Assembly: GCF_001449115.1 (NCBI RefSeq)
Contig: NZ_LAIJ01000010.1
Span: 310,001 to 374,000 of the forward strand
Length of the DNA stretch: 64,000 nt
Direction of reading: 5' to 3'
Source: Occallatibacter gabretensis
GTDB lineage: Bacteria; Acidobacteriota; Terriglobia; Terriglobales; Acidobacteriaceae
Below, in pieces: positions 54,192 to 61,474 of the stretch. The notes beneath the pieces were generated by a model, which was not told where the DNA came from, searched no databases, and saw only the letters and a program-made list of their open reading frames with translations. The translations under genes and the position numbers were made by a program. The number at the start of each line of letters is the position of its first letter. Within the stretch, counting starts at the first letter, position 1.

Positions 54192-55298
54192 ATGCGGCCA
54201 TCCTTCTCGCTCGGCATCGAAGAAGAGTACCAGACCATCGACCCGGTCACGCGCGACCTTCGTTCGCACATTGAAACCGAGATGCTCGCCGTGGGCAAGC
54301 TGCGCCTGCAGGAGCGCGTCAAGGCCGAAATGCACACGTCTGTGGTCGAAGTGGGCACGCGCGTATGCCGCAATATCACTGAGGCCAAGGAAGACATCTA
54401 CGATCTCCGTCGCCAGATGATTCGCCTTGCCGATGAGCACAAGCTGAAACTCGTTGCCGGCGCTACCCACCCTTTTGCTGACTGGCGCACGCAGCAGATT
54501 TATCCTGACCCACGCTACCATCAGGTTGTCAAAGAACTGCAACTGGCCGCGCGCGCAAATCTCATCTTCGGTTTGCACGTTCACGTGGGCATCGAAGATC
54601 GCGAAGCCGCCATCCAAATCATGAACTCGATGCGCTATTTTCTCCCGCACATCATGGCGCTTGCTACCAATTCGCCCTTCTGGCTGGGCCTGAACACTGG
54701 CTACAAGGGCTACCGTGCCAAGGTCTTTGAGAACTTTCCGCGCACCGGCATCCCGGATGCTTTTCAAAGCTACAGCGAGTTCGAGAACTACGTCAATCTG
54801 CTGATCCGGACCAACTGCATCGACAACGCCAAGAAGATCTGGTGGGACATCCGGCCGCATCCGTTCTTCAACACCGTTGAAGTCCGCGCCTGCGACATCC
54901 CACTCCGCGCCGAAGAGACCGTCGCCATCGCCGCACTCATCCAGGCCACCGCTGCCTATCTCTACCAGCTCCATGAGTCCAACCTGGATTACCGTCACTA
55001 CGCGCGGCCTCTGCTGATGGAGAACAAATTCCGTGCCGTACGCTACGGCCTGGAGGGTAAGCTCATCGATTTCGGCAAGCAGACCGAAGTTCCCGAGCGC
55101 GAGCTTCTTGAAGAGTATCTTGCGCTTATCGATCCTGTTGTAGATGAGCTCGATAGCCGCTGGGCCATTGAAGGCATTCGAAAAATCATGGAGACAGGCA
55201 CCGGCGCTGATCGCCAGCTCAAGGTCTTTGAGGAAACGAAAGGCGACCTCAAGGCCGTCGTCGATTACATGGCGCAGGAGACCGCGGAAGGGCTGTGA
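54192..55298 (+). CDS. GCS2-type carboxylate-amine ligase (YbdK family)
   Basis: A 368-residue protein. SFSLGIEEEYQTIDP at the start carries the metal-binding Glu cluster, LIFGLHVHVGIED is the active-site strand, and SPFWLGLNTGYKGYR follows. The family makes gamma-glutamylcysteine or other carboxylate-amine products. GAGCAC stands before the ATG with GGAG. Together with the ATP-grasp protein it suggests a two-ligase pathway. Confidence 0.9.
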   Translation: MRPSFSLGIEEEYQTIDPVTRDLRSHIETEMLAVGKLRLQERVKAEMHTSVVEVGTRVCRNITEAKEDIYDLRRQMIRLADEHKLKLVAGATHPFADWRTQQIYPDPRYHQVVKELQLAARANLIFGLHVHVGIEDREAAIQIMNSMRYFLPHIMALATNSPFWLGLNTGYKGYRAKVFENFPRTGIPDAFQSYSEFENYVNLLIRTNCIDNAKKIWWDIRPHPFFNTVEVRACDIPLRAEETVAIAALIQATAAYLYQLHESNLDYRHYARPLLMENKFRAVRYGLEGKLIDFGKQTEVPERELLEEYLALIDPVVDELDSRWAIEGIRKIMETGTGADRQLKVFEETKGDLKAVVDYMAQETAEGL

Positions 55299-55461: not shown

Positions 55462-56508
55462 ATGACTGCAACCGCCTCGCAACTGCTCTCCCTGCCATAT
55501 CCCGCTGACTTCATTGAGGGTGCACGCTCTGCCGTGACCACATGCCTGCGAATTCAGCCGTCGGAGAAGGTCACGCTCATCACAGACGTGCAGACCAAGG
55601 CGATTGGTGCTTCGCTTGCTGTGCAGCTTGAAAAGAACGGCTGCACATGGAACGCCTTCATCCTCGAAGACCTGGCTCCGCGCCCGCTCGTCGATATGCC
55701 CGCCGAGGTTCTTTCCGACATGGAAACTTCAGAGGTCTCCATCTTCGCTGTCCAGGTGCAGGCCAATGAGCTTCGCTCTCGAATGCAAATGACGGACGTG
55801 GTGAACCGCCGCCACATGCGCCACGCGCACATGGTGAACATCACATCGGATGTGATGTGCCAGGGCATGCGCGCCGACTTCAACCGCGTGGATCGCCTCT
55901 CACAGCAGGTTCTCGATCGCGTGCGCCGTGCGCACCGTATCCGCGCCACTACCGCTGCGGGAACGAACATCGTTTCGGAGATGAATCCCGGCTACAAGTG
56001 GTTCAAGACCTCCGGCATCATTTCGCCGGAGAAATGGGGCAACCTGCCTGGCGGCGAGTGTTTCACCTCGCCGGGTGAAGTGAACGGTACCTTTGTTGTG
56101 GATGGTGTGGTGGGCGACTGGCTCTGCGCGCGCTATGGCCTGCTGGCGGGCACTCCTCTGACCATCGAAATTCGCGAGAATCGCATTGTGAGCTGCAAGA
56201 GCAAGAACAAACAGCTTGAGGCCGACTTCTGGGAATATACCCACACCGATGAAAACTCGGATCGCGTGGGCGAGTTCGCCATCGGCACCAATCTTGGCGT
56301 CGATCACGTGATTGGCAACATCCTGCAGGACGAAAAATTTCCCGGTATTCACATCGCCTTCGGCAATCCCTACGGCGAGCACACCGGCGCTCCCTGGCGC
56401 TCTTCGACGCACATTGACGTTGTCGGCCTTGGCTTCAACATCTGGCTCGAAACCGACGAGGGTGAAGAGCAGATTATGCGCGACGGCAAGTTCCTCATCG
56501 CCGCATAG
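55462..56508 (+). CDS. M29-family aminopeptidase-like protein
   Basis: A 348-residue metallopeptidase of the M29 (AmpS/PepS) type. Metal-binding residues lie in GGECFTSPGEVNG, GEFAIGTN and HIAFGNPYGEHTGA. Members are cobalt or zinc aminopeptidases. In this cluster it could process a peptide-like product of the ligases. AAGGAG lies about 15 nt upstream of the ATG. The 163-nt gap before it may hold its own promoter. Confidence 0.87.
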   Translation: MTATASQLLSLPYPADFIEGARSAVTTCLRIQPSEKVTLITDVQTKAIGASLAVQLEKNGCTWNAFILEDLAPRPLVDMPAEVLSDMETSEVSIFAVQVQANELRSRMQMTDVVNRRHMRHAHMVNITSDVMCQGMRADFNRVDRLSQQVLDRVRRAHRIRATTAAGTNIVSEMNPGYKWFKTSGIISPEKWGNLPGGECFTSPGEVNGTFVVDGVVGDWLCARYGLLAGTPLTIEIRENRIVSCKSKNKQLEADFWEYTHTDENSDRVGEFAIGTNLGVDHVIGNILQDEKFPGIHIAFGNPYGEHTGAPWRSSTHIDVVGLGFNIWLETDEGEEQIMRDGKFLIAA

Positions 56509-57619: not shown

Positions 57620-57653
57620 AAGATTGCCCCCGGCCTTGGCCGGGGGCAATCTT
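57620..57653 (+). terminator. Intrinsic terminator after the aldo/keto reductase
   Basis: A perfect 15-bp GC-rich stem (57620-57634 with 57639-57653), loop cttg, is followed by GTTTATC. It closes the plus-strand cluster. Confidence 0.88.
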
Positions 57654-57710: not shown

Positions 57711-58229
57711 TTACATCGCTGCGACAAAGTCAGGCAGTACCACCGCTGCATTCTCCTGGAGCAGTTGCGTCATGCGCGCCGCCATGCTGGAGTACATATC
57801 GGCTGCGCGATATGCATTGATCCGCACGCCTTCACTTGCCTGCGTAAAACCGTATTGGGCCAATCCCATCAGCACGCACAGCCGAATCTGCATCGCGTCA
57901 CTGCGAAGCGTCGCGACCAGCACAAGATCCACATCCGGGCAGTTCCGTGCCGCATAACCAGCCATCTCCATCATCACGCCAGCGTTCTGATAAATCGCCC
58001 ACAGGCCGCGCGGACCTTCCATACGAGTCCAGGCATCATCCGGAGTGGCGTTCAAGCCTTCCTTCCAAAGGAAGTTGTCGCTCAACTCACGTGCGCTCCA
58101 ATCCACTCGGAGCCGTGACATCAAAGAGTCCCACGTTTGCTGGCTACGCCGCTTTGCGGCAGCTCGCCAACGCACAAACCATGTGACCAAGGCCGCAAAA
58201 ATTAATACCTGCAGCAAAGGTAAAATCAT
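57711..58229 (-). CDS. Hypothetical membrane-anchored protein
   Basis: A 172-residue protein with one N-terminal helix (LPLLQVLIFAALVTWFVRW), a basic stretch and a mostly helical soluble domain. GAGGT stands 6 nt before the ATG. No family recognised. The 200-nt gap upstream (58230-58429) is AT-rich and likely holds its promoter. Confidence 0.65.
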   Translation of the reverse strand: MILPLLQVLIFAALVTWFVRWRAAAKRRSQQTWDSLMSRLRVDWSARELSDNFLWKEGLNATPDDAWTRMEGPRGLWAIYQNAGVMMEMAGYAARNCPDVDLVLVATLRSDAMQIRLCVLMGLAQYGFTQASEGVRINAYRAADMYSSMAARMTQLLQENAAVVLPDFVAAM

Positions 58230-58429: not shown

Positions 58430-59212
58430 TTAGCCCCGCCGATTTCCCCGTAAATCATTTCCCTGCAATGCAATACGTCCTGAGTGTGCAGCTCCGGAAA
58501 CCGTAAGCAGAAAACTTCGCATCTGCGGGGTGAACTCCTGCCGTACTGCCTCCTGCTGTGCAAAACTCCACGCCCAGTAGACGAGGGCGCACAGATAAGC
58601 CCCCGGCAGGAGCTGATCTACCTTATGGTAGTGGGCCACCTGCGGCATCTGCGCATGTAATAGTGACACCGCCAGACTCACCAGCGAATAAAATCCCAGC
58701 CCTGTGGCCACCTGCAATTCGCGGTCTCGCCAGTTGATAGAAAGCAGATGGCTGCCTCCCGCCAGAACCACGCAAAACAGAATCTGCAGCATTGAGGCCG
58801 TCTGTCGCAGGCGGAGGAAAAAATGCCATTCCGGCGGAAGCCCGTGCATCAATGTGGTGCCCGAAATTGGCCAGACAGCCACTCCCGCAATTAGAACTAG
58901 ACCTGCAATCGCCGGTACCGTCCAGCGTGGGAGGGACGATTGCAGCGGTTTCAATACCGACCACGCAAGCTCCACAAGCACACAGAATTGGAGCACACAG
59001 TCAAGCGACATCTCGTAAGGGTAGAAATGGGAGTAGGAATTCCAAGAGCGCGTAGCGAGCAAAAAACCAAGCGAGTCACTGATCACCGACCACAGAACGT
59101 AGAGGCAAAACAGAGGCAAGCGCTTGTAGGCACGCCTCCAGATCAGCAGCGCAACCAATCCCACCTGCGCCGCGAAACCGCTCCACATTAATGCTGTGTC
59201 TAACGGCGACAC
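58430..59212 (-). CDS. Hypothetical multi-pass membrane protein
   Basis: A 260-residue protein with about seven hydrophobic helices and conserved-looking His/Glu (SYSHFYPYEM, HAQMPQVAHYH). The GTG start has AGGAG 7 nt upstream. The layout recalls acidobacterial 7TM hypotheticals of unknown role. It lies next to the tandem-repeat protein gene on the same strand but 86 nt downstream of it. Confidence 0.65.
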   Translation of the reverse strand: MSPLDTALMWSGFAAQVGLVALLIWRRAYKRLPLFCLYVLWSVISDSLGFLLATRSWNSYSHFYPYEMSLDCVLQFCVLVELAWSVLKPLQSSLPRWTVPAIAGLVLIAGVAVWPISGTTLMHGLPPEWHFFLRLRQTASMLQILFCVVLAGGSHLLSINWRDRELQVATGLGFYSLVSLAVSLLHAQMPQVAHYHKVDQLLPGAYLCALVYWAWSFAQQEAVRQEFTPQMRSFLLTVSGAAHSGRIALQGNDLRGNRRG

Positions 59213-59298: not shown

Positions 59299-59880
59299 TT
59301 ACACCCTGTCAGCGCTCACAACTCCGCCACCTGGGGGCGTCGGTGTGGGCAGCATGGGACCGTGACCGATGTAGCTACCGCCCGGAGGCGTCGGCGTGGG
59401 AAGCATGGGACCAGCAACGGCGGCTACCATTCCTCCACCTGGAGGCGTTGGCGTCGGCAGCATGGGACCGTGGCCAATATAGCTACCGCCGGGAGGCGTC
59501 GGCGTTGGCAGCATCGGGCCAGCCGCAATAGCTACCATTCCGCCACCGGGAGGTGTGGGTGTCGGCAGCATTGGTCCGTGACCAACATAGCTACCGCCGG
59601 GAGGCGTGGGGGTCGGGAGCATAGGACCAGCCGCAACGGTCGCTACCATTCCACCACCCGGAGGTGTGGGTGTGGGCAGCATCGGTCCGTGACCGATGTA
59701 GCTACCGCCCGGAGGCGTGGGCGTGGGAAGCATGGGGCCCTGAGCAGATGTACTGGAGGTAAAACCACCACCTGGAGGGGTCGGCGTAGGCAGCATTGGT
59801 CCCTCGGCAAACGCATTTACGGAGGCAAGAGAAACCATGGCAAACATAACGAGACGCAGCTTGTTGACTGTTGAAATCAT
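59299..59880 (-). CDS. Secreted tandem-repeat protein, nine GPMLPTPTPPGG units
   Basis: A 193-residue protein: a signal peptide (MISTVNKLRLVMFAMVSLAS, cleavage after AFA near residue 25) and then nine exact copies of GPMLPTPTPPGG. Spacers alternate: SYIGH or SYVGH after the even copies, and GMVA-type or other longer spacers after the odd ones. No other domain is present. There are no Asp or Glu in the motif. AAGGAG lies 9 nt before the ATG at 59880. I know no family. It could be a surface or periplasmic structural peptide. Confidence 0.8.
   Translation of the reverse strand: MISTVNKLRLVMFAMVSLASVNAFAEGPMLPTPTPPGGGFTSSTSAQGPMLPTPTPPGGSYIGHGPMLPTPTPPGGGMVATVAAGPMLPTPTPPGGSYVGHGPMLPTPTPPGGGMVAIAAGPMLPTPTPPGGSYIGHGPMLPTPTPPGGGMVAAVAGPMLPTPTPPGGSYIGHGPMLPTPTPPGGGVVSADRV
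59326..59802 (-). repeat. Coding tandem repeat (nine 36-nt units)
   Basis: The units encode GPMLPTPTPPGG and are in frame. Pairs of units with short and long spacers form a higher-order repeat of about 36 codons, suggesting duplication of a two-motif block. Synonymous differences between copies (gtgggcgtgggaagcat versus gtcggcgttggcagcat) show the protein rather than the DNA is conserved. Confidence 0.85.
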
Positions 59881-59937: not shown

Positions 59938-59998
59938 AGTGAAATTCACTACAAAAGTAACAATTTAGAAACTCTTTGGTAATAACGATGCGTTACCA
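59938..59998. promoter_or_regulatory. Palindromes in the divergent intergenic region
   Basis: Between the repeat gene and the divergent gene at 60155 lie AGTGAAATTCACT (59938-59950, perfect) and TGGTAA...TTACCA (59977-59998). They are possible regulator sites. The second is slightly like an arm of the LacI-type palindrome at 11264. No clear promoter could be placed. Confidence 0.4.
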
Positions 59999-60154
59999 TA
60001 GAGGTACCATTCTTATAGTTAAAACCTGACACGCTAGTGACAGCTTCTACACCACTTCACAAGGCAAAAGCCGGCCTAAGCCGGCATATTAGAGTGAATA
60101 GCGAACGGAAGAGCAATCGTAGTGTTACATGTATCGGTATAGGAAGGATCTTTT

Positions 60155-61474
60155 GTGATTGTTAATCTTCGTTCTCACTTCAACCAGGACTATACACCTG
60201 CCCAATACGCAGAGCTACTCGCACTTTTGCATCAGCGCTGTGGTGTACCAGTGAAGTTTCGGGTGGCGGAGACTCCCATCTTTCTGACCCGTGACCTGCT
60301 CGATGGCATCGCTCAATCTGGGATCCGCCTCTCCGAGCGCCTCACTGCTGATCCCGCTTACCTGGCCGCAGCCCGCCTGGCTATTCCAGCCGGCTACCGT
60401 GTGGCCTCGGAAACATCCCGGCCTAACTTCCTGACCGCGGATTTCGCCCTTATCCGTGACAGCGACGGCCAACTCAGTCCGCGCCTCGTCGAATTACAGG
60501 CCTTTCCTTCCGTATATGCCTACCAGGCTATTCTAAATGCTGCTTATCGCGACATTTATTCGTTGGATGCGAAATTTAATGACAGGTTACAGGCTCGGCC
60601 GGAAACTTTTTTGTCTGGCCTTAACGAAGATTCTTATTGGCAGCTCCTCGGCAAGACGATCGTCGGTTCGCACGACCCGGAAACTGTAGTCTTAACAGAG
60701 GTCGATCCGTTCCATCAGAAAACGCTTCCGGACTTCAACCTCACGGCACAGAAGCTCGGCATCGCTGTCGTCGACATCGCCTCAATTGAGCCGGAAGGAT
60801 CCCGCCTCACCTACCGGGGTTCCGGTGGCCGCCGCATCCCAATCTCCCGCATCTATAACCGCGCCATCGCAGACGAGCTTATTGCCAGCAATATCCAACT
60901 CCAGTTCGATCTGGAGCGCTCCTGGAACGTGGAATGGGCCGGCCACCCAAACTGGTACTTCCTTATCAGCAAGTTTTCCATCCCGTTTCTCTGCCGTCCC
61001 GAAGCGCAATCCGATGGGCAGCCGTCCCTCGAGCCCGACCCCGTCGTCCCTCCCTCTGTCTTTGTCAGCGACTTCCTCGCCGGTCCCGGCCGCATTCAGC
61101 TCGAATCCGCCGGCGTCCCTCTCCCGGCCCTTTCCACTGATGCAGTCTATTCCAGCCTTCTTCTAAAACCGCTCTTCTCCTTCGCCGGCAAGGGCATCCA
61201 GTTCGACCCCACGCATGCCCAGCTTCTGGCCATTCCGCCCGAAAACCGCGGCGATTACCTCCTCCAGCAGCGCATGAGCTTCGTCCCCACCATAGAAACT
61301 CCCTTCGGCGCCACCCAGTTTGAAATCCGCATTCTCTACCTCTGGCCGGATGGCGGCGAGCTTTTTCCTGCGATTTCGCTTGCCCGGCTGGGCAGAGGTC
61401 GTATGATGGGTGTAGACCACAATCGTAATCTGGAGTGGGTAGGAGCCTCGGGGGCGTTTTTCCCCGTTGCTTAG
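60155..61474 (+). CDS. Conserved hypothetical with ATP-grasp-like features
   Basis: A 439-residue cytoplasmic protein. Motifs include VELQAFPSVYAYQ, VDPFHQKTLPDF, ISRIYNRAIADEL, HPNWYFLISKFSIPFL, LLKPLFSFAGKGIQ (a Gly-rich nucleotide-loop pattern) and FEIRILYLWP near the end. The order resembles circularly permuted ATP-grasp enzymes of the glutathionylspermidine-synthase type. I recall similar unannotated proteins in Bacteroidota, but cannot confirm. The GTG start has GGAAGG upstream. It is divergent from the repeat protein gene. Confidence 0.7.
   Translation: MIVNLRSHFNQDYTPAQYAELLALLHQRCGVPVKFRVAETPIFLTRDLLDGIAQSGIRLSERLTADPAYLAAARLAIPAGYRVASETSRPNFLTADFALIRDSDGQLSPRLVELQAFPSVYAYQAILNAAYRDIYSLDAKFNDRLQARPETFLSGLNEDSYWQLLGKTIVGSHDPETVVLTEVDPFHQKTLPDFNLTAQKLGIAVVDIASIEPEGSRLTYRGSGGRRIPISRIYNRAIADELIASNIQLQFDLERSWNVEWAGHPNWYFLISKFSIPFLCRPEAQSDGQPSLEPDPVVPPSVFVSDFLAGPGRIQLESAGVPLPALSTDAVYSSLLLKPLFSFAGKGIQFDPTHAQLLAIPPENRGDYLLQQRMSFVPTIETPFGATQFEIRILYLWPDGGELFPAISLARLGRGRMMGVDHNRNLEWVGASGAFFPVA

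Follow-up and report, generated by a model that had tools for sequence, protein, structure and literature searches.

What is the function of a secreted protein that consists of little more than nine identical copies of one proline-rich peptide, and which other gene, if any, does it work with? The question is raised by a gene in the window, the whole stretch of 64,000 nucleotides of Occallatibacter gabretensis DNA analysed here. The gene and its parts are as follows, the positions of the core copies being computed from the translation:

59299..59880, minus strand: repeat protein gene (P0001), 193 aa, with signal peptide, nine exact GPMLPTPTPPGG copies, spacers and tail
59806..59880, minus strand: signal peptide MISTVNKLRLVMFAMVSLASVNAFA (Sec/type I, predicted), residues 1-25, read from the translation
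59767..59802, minus strand: core copy 1, GPMLPTPTPPGG
59704..59739, minus strand: core copy 2
59653..59688, minus strand: core copy 3
59593..59628, minus strand: core copy 4
59542..59577, minus strand: core copy 5
59485..59520, minus strand: core copy 6
59434..59469, minus strand: core copy 7
59377..59412, minus strand: core copy 8
59326..59361, minus strand: core copy 9

The open reading frame starts with an ATG at 59880, with GGAG upstream. The sequence MISTVNKLRLVMFAMVSLASVNAFA has a basic N-terminus, a hydrophobic core and an AFA site; judged by composition and the AxA site, by eye and with a simple rule, it resembles a signal peptide and supports the secretion proposed in an earlier note on this DNA. 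All nine motif copies behind it are exact (9/9 GPMLPTPTPPGG), and the spacers alternate between SYIGH or SYVGH and the GMVA type, much as that note described (in order GFTSSTSAQ, SYIGH, GMVATVAA, SYVGH, GMVAIAA, SYIGH, GMVAAVA and SYIGH, with the C-terminal tail GVVSADRV). The statement that acidic residues are missing was slightly wrong, since one Glu directly precedes copy 1 and one Asp lies in the tail. Tandem Repeats Finder detected a higher-order repeat in the array (period 108 nt, score 521), no strict cleavage site common to the spacers was found, and the protein occurs once in its own genome. Its sole domain match in Pfam and NCBIfam is a ThiE fragment below the cutoff (TMP-TENI, E=2.4e-4; TIGR00693) which covers fewer than 20 residues (19) and was rejected as a similarity that the motif shows by chance. 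No match was obtained in Rfam. The lack of a known domain and the view that no described family covers the protein are supported by the libraries and the PDB, where no family match was found for the peptides.

The earlier note had interpreted the invariant peptide with its varying codons as a result of selection on the peptide. Alignment of the copies bears this out: the nine copies are nine distinct DNA sequences which differ by synonymous changes only, and eight codon columns of the array hold 16 extra synonymous states and 0 extra amino-acid states. Because the copies differ synonymously without any amino-acid change, the repeat is neither a chance product nor a purely DNA-level one. For the 10-aa core, pS is 0.611 and pN 0.0000, and for the 8-aa core of 49 distinct arrays the extra codon states are 265 synonymous and 20 amino-acid ones, with pN=0 in 40 arrays; the core windows behind these figures were picked for repetition, which lowers pN. 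The 18 full 15-aa units of the array at locus L197 behave alike (pS=0.372, pN=0.000). Coding constraint in relatives, which frame-disrupting variants would contradict, was examined in 34 arrays using whole periods without picking a core window. The mean pN/pS was 0.30 in frame and 1.7-2.0 in the two other frames, and this constraint specific to the coding frame rules out non-coding tandem DNA. Recent gene conversion as the source of identical copies is ruled out for most arrays by their high synonymous divergence, though in arrays of low pS (L070 and L083, for example) it is possible. These codon comparisons demonstrate, at the level of the sequence, purifying selection that keeps each proline-rich core copy identical.

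A search with the motif sequence in GTDB genome contigs gave no close match. Weak matches were obtained in two relatives, at contig ends, and both encode, in syntenic position, a secreted repeat protein whose motif differs. The repeat family became visible only through the synteny of the genes adjoining the array:

58430..59212, minus strand: p260, a 260-aa 7-TM protein, the conserved partner, with no Pfam, NCBIfam or PADLOC match
57711..58229, minus strand: p172, the third gene, 172 aa, with a single TM helix at the N-terminus and a domain presumed to be cytoplasmic
57620..57653, minus strand: strong intrinsic terminator with a 15-bp stem, closing the repeat-p260-p172 unit
60155..61474, plus strand: p439, divergent neighbour with a glutathione-synthetase (ATP-grasp) fold, judged not to be part of the system

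The use of p439 as a probe yielded 80 named loci. Within the window clade the order is GCS-M29-AKR-p172-p260-repeat, the last three on the minus strand, followed by p439-PilZ-LuxR, and nearly every locus with enough sequence encodes a divergently transcribed tandem repeat protein with a signal peptide called by rule. In outgroups such as Granulicella the order is GCS-M29-p439, and p172, p260 and the repeat gene are all missing from that place. Since these outgroups keep p439 without the other three, the repeat gene travels with p260 and p172 and not with p439. The apparent unit is transcribed in the order secreted repeat peptide, p260, p172 and strong terminator; no intergenic terminator was found inside the unit in the window, and p172 comes after p260 in most strong loci. 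Gene order and synteny establish the repeat gene, as read from the genomes, as the first gene of a conserved three-gene unit with p260 and p172. In strain AB60 (L023, 1509-2729), a radical-SAM-like gene lies between M29 and AKR; it has no counterpart there in the window.

The fold of p439 and its divergent transcription from the repeat gene would suit a RiPP precursor modified by this ATP-grasp enzyme, like the multi-core microviridin-type RiPPs with their ATP-grasp ligases, which also have repeated cores. However, the precursor here has a Sec signal peptide in place of a cytosolic leader, and the ATP-grasp gene is inconsistently linked to the peptide: the peptide unit is lacking from GCS-M29-p439 in the outgroups, and the peptide-p260 pair is present where p439 was not found (e.g. 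in genome G032). The p439 protein matches glutathione synthetases (E 1e-15; no Pfam or NCBIfam match) and its gene lies near that of a YbdK-type carboxylate-amine ligase. It was therefore rejected as a RiPP enzyme and judged to be a metabolic neighbour, which makes the RiPP explanation extremely improbable. The genes for the YbdK-type ligase, the M29-like protein and p439 (54192-55298, 55462-56508 and 60155-61474) are linked across many Acidobacteriaceae and possibly encode an undescribed pathway for a thiol or a gamma-glutamyl compound.

The earlier note did not recognize that the motif is species-specific and that the neighbouring 7-TM gene p260 is the constant element. The 43 loci compared have 43 different motifs, one own motif per locus (in the window clade, for example, SPVNPLPPFPPNGG, IPMSPFPTKTA, FGPGIPAPLPQSKG and GPMVPVPPPPGPT), and in most of them the xPxxPxP skeleton is present. 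The comparison thus shows, for predicted proteins, a species-specific core that is mostly built on this skeleton. The combination of high synonymous change, zero amino-acid change and turnover between species represents unusually clean selection on a repeated peptide. Motif identity is 0.31 in p260 pairs of 50-60% identity, close to the background of 0.26 (Spearman 0.08 for motif similarity vs p260 similarity), and because the motif tracks p260 this weakly, co-evolution of receptor and ligand is not demonstrated.

The mature parts of 51 proteins contain 25% Pro, 4.9% K+R+H and 1.3% D+E, as delimited by a rule-based caller of signal-peptidase sites that often cuts a few residues early and was used for composition only. 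Insect PrAMP precursors of the apidaecin type similarly carry tandem near-identical Pro-rich peptides behind a signal peptide, but these are cationic, Arg-rich antimicrobials, whereas the cores found here are nearly uncharged and have a bacterial 7-TM gene as their partner. The composition is compatible with an intact structural or adhesive protein, i.e. a polyproline-type surface fibre or linker that p260 and p172 would anchor, export or monitor: the secreted proteins are of low complexity and Pro-rich, they reach 311 aa, and the xPxxPxP spacing is mostly retained while the side chains vary. Exact copy identity despite very high synonymous change is nevertheless stricter than a fibre needs, and homologous p260 loci encode single-copy proteins of 39-72 aa or contain tandem single-copy genes. 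We consider a structural role unlikely. From the alternatives of a structural, adhesive or released peptide listed in the earlier note, the comparative evidence favours the released peptide, to which a cognate membrane partner is to be added.

The pairing of peptide and membrane protein extends well beyond the window clade. Across the Acidobacteriaceae, 62 unique p260-family genes have 450 nt or more of upstream sequence, and under one uniform strict rule 50 of them are preceded by a secreted PxxP peptide ORF, as compared with 0-4% for control genes under the same rule (M29 1/37, AKR 0/34, PilZ 0/70, LuxR 2/74, p439 3/82). Several misses, including L172, L186, L192 and L194, have such an ORF when inspected by eye, and others lie at contig ends or are the second member of a tandem p260 pair. 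With a p260 profile, p260-like genes were detected in 282 of the 397 genomes of the order; in a phylum-wide sample, the matches (15 of 247) were confined to the family of the window. Further genomes, some without a detected p439, again had repeat proteins with new motifs upstream of p260, as did distant genera including large single-contig genomes (L184, L186, L193; also L197). We conclude that p260 and the peptide are very probably a functional pair. At L164, L170, L171, L172, L179 and L180, one peptide gene is followed by two tandem p260-like genes, the second being more divergent.

The many-copy array, the form described in the earlier note, proved to be one of several. The most distant p260 members are accompanied by single-copy secreted peptides (Edaphobacter-like: ..MFANMTGGNPHPQVASVALSLGDYASIVISVFGL), and remote p260 paralogues, mostly of about 310 aa, often by 2-4 tandem peptide genes of 39-59 aa (L216, L217, L219, L220, L222 and L227; ..LPVPTCAPNDPNACGMGTR and ..YAGLSTAPPPTPHGLRK). 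Copy number ranges from 1 to 19 intragenic copies or from 2 to 4 tandem small genes, and single-copy proteins measure 39-72 aa; copy numbers may be wrong because many loci are short-read drafts or MAGs. For the single-copy forms L084, L101 (..ANA followed by SPIIPAPLPPVGHIADAV) and L169, a peptide of about 16-18 aa is predicted after signal peptidase alone. Draft contigs stop inside the repeat array at L022 (start), L023 (end), L024 (end), L069, L074, L075 and L119, and with arrays at the contig ends of several drafts such genes are probably under-represented in public annotations.

The peptide ORF lies mostly 40-270 nt upstream of the membrane protein gene. A secreted Pro-rich ORF at such a distance in one unit could act as a SecM/VemP-like arrest leader, the translation state of which would control p260 expression. 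RNA structure between the ORFs, which was sought with reference to SecM, VemP and MifM, did not appear at the three loci analysed, where no fold beat the shuffled sequences (z -0.9, +1.0, +1.1). Moreover, there are up to 19 identical copies, which lie at no constant distance from the stop codon, and tandem peptide genes exist. A role as an arrest leader is very unlikely.

Adjacency of a secreted peptide and a membrane protein in one unit, together with rapid diversification between species, might also be expected of a bacteriocin-like, antagonistic peptide, with immunity conferred by p260 (and p172) as its cognate membrane protein. The peptide is, however, nearly neutral and Pro-rich and not cationic (4.9% basic), p260 is widespread in the family, the unit is syntenic within the window clade, and there is no match to a known family or defence model; in particular, neither p260, p172 nor the repeat protein matched the PADLOC models of anti-phage defence. 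Antagonism is consequently an improbable explanation.

What, then, would p260 do with the peptide? Its AlphaFold model (pLDDT 81, pTM 0.76) comprises seven long helices and a C-terminal helix. The positive-inside distribution of K+R (14/69 inside vs 1/32 outside) indicates an N-out/C-in topology. Mean column identity is 0.50 in the cytoplasmic halves of the TM helices vs 0.31 in the periplasmic halves (p=4e-7), and the cytoplasmic loops and tail are conserved while the periplasmic side is far more variable. Membrane proteins are commonly more variable on their outer face. Searches of Pfam, NCBIfam, PADLOC and PDB sequences yielded no usable match to either p260 or p172, and neither a kinase domain nor any other output domain was found in p260. 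Foldseek against the PDB gave no structural match at E<=0.001 (best E 0.05), the top matches being generic 7-TM proteins (GPCRs, rhodopsins) with a TM score of at most about 0.5. A candidate paralogue of p260 in its own genome (C2:2324970) was dismissed as an unrelated-looking multi-TM protein.

The tight pairing and the invariant polar residues of this membrane protein (E81, S154, R164 and E165) might suggest that p260 is not a receptor but a dedicated processing protease or exporter, the peptide acting elsewhere. Sec export is, however, already provided by the signal peptide, neither HExxH nor a conserved Ser/His pair is found among the invariant p260 columns, and conservation peaks on the cytoplasmic side, out of reach of a periplasmic peptide. 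Such a processing or export function is hardly probable. That p260 is the receptor of the peptide, as its topology, conservation and pairing suggest, has in our estimation a chance that is even at best.

Taken as a whole, the reading that we prefer, and for which the chances appear evenly divided, is that the repeat gene encodes a multi-copy propeptide releasing a species-specific peptide which is recognized by p260. The repeat protein would leave the cytoplasm by the Sec route and be cleaved by signal peptidase I. Envelope or extracellular proteases might then cut the variable spacers to give several peptide copies of about 10-18 residues, while single-copy forms would need signal peptidase only. 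Peptide release as such is rather probable. The putative receptor p260 would recognize the peptide and relay the signal inward, possibly via p172, and the dose could be set by copy number, through intragenic repeats in one lineage and gene duplication in another. The outcome would be a species-specific peptide system for cell-cell or self-sensing. Acidobacteria are diderm, and the peptide must therefore either pass the outer membrane as well or have its site of action in the periplasm. A broader proposal is put forward tentatively: family-wide signalling in a diderm bacterial phylum, with a kinase-less 7-TM receptor as the sensor of a proline-rich peptide that is Sec-secreted, multi-copy and species-specific. 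This would be a GPCR-like design with no known bacterial relative.

Multi-copy precursors are well documented. Yeast MFalpha1 contains 16 synonymous repeat sequences that encode one peptide, and its copy number is variable and affects output (PMC5850478). Phr propeptides of Bacillota have up to 8 identical pheromone copies (PMC11343458), and several RRNPPA subfamilies commonly have multiple pheromone copies (PMC9765709). Constraint within a genome combined with turnover between species, as seen here, is what characterizes multi-copy pheromone precursors. In Rap-Phr and other RRNPPA quorum-sensing systems of Bacillota, as in the unit proposed here, a Sec-exported propeptide adjoins its partner gene, and several identical mature copies (up to 8) or several propeptide genes occur (PMC11343458, PMC9765709); the signal-peptide-like N-terminus, recognized by eye and with a simple rule, and the nine identical copies agree with such a propeptide. 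In contrast, RRNPPA receptors are TPR proteins of the cytoplasm, whereas p260 is a 7-TM membrane protein without TPR, and neither it nor p172 has a Pfam match. Phr-type genes also lie downstream of the receptor gene, while the peptide gene lies upstream here, in a diderm acidobacterium and with a Pro-rich core. The MFalpha1/Ste2 system has in common with the unit a signal sequence, identical tandem peptides with synonymous differences, variable copy number (PMC5850478) and a 7-TM partner with N-out/C-in topology. It differs in that there is here no sequence or significant structural homology (the Foldseek match of p260 to Ste2 has E 0.17, and no homology to Ste2 or GPCRs, as would place p260 in class D, appears at E<=0.001), no KR/EAEA processing spacers and no known G-protein or kinase partner. 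By comparison with these systems, the unit looks like an undescribed peptide-and-receptor pair of yeast-pheromone-like design, with a logic most likely similar to that of Rap-Phr or yeast alpha-factor but belonging to no known family.

Acidobacteria rank among the most abundant bacteria of soils. In the literature searched (open PubMed Central), no system of peptide signalling was found for them. If the model is true, each species would have its own peptide channel on one scaffold, readable from genomes alone, and dozens of peptide-receptor pairs would be at hand to probe specificity and co-evolution.

The region upstream of the repeat gene holds a further conserved feature:

59948..59960, minus strand: upstream element TTACTTTTGTAGT, candidate promoter/operator, with similar elements in orthologous intergenic regions

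In many orthologous loci an TTACTTTTGTNGT element and a second, TTTTGGGTTAC-like element lie upstream of the repeat gene. A search of the organism's own genome for a regulon sharing the candidate promoter element gave one exact match, that at the locus itself. At 60070-60085 on the minus strand, between p439 and the repeat gene, lies a perfect GC-rich hairpin, GCCGGCTTAGGCCGGC, with T-rich sequence behind it.
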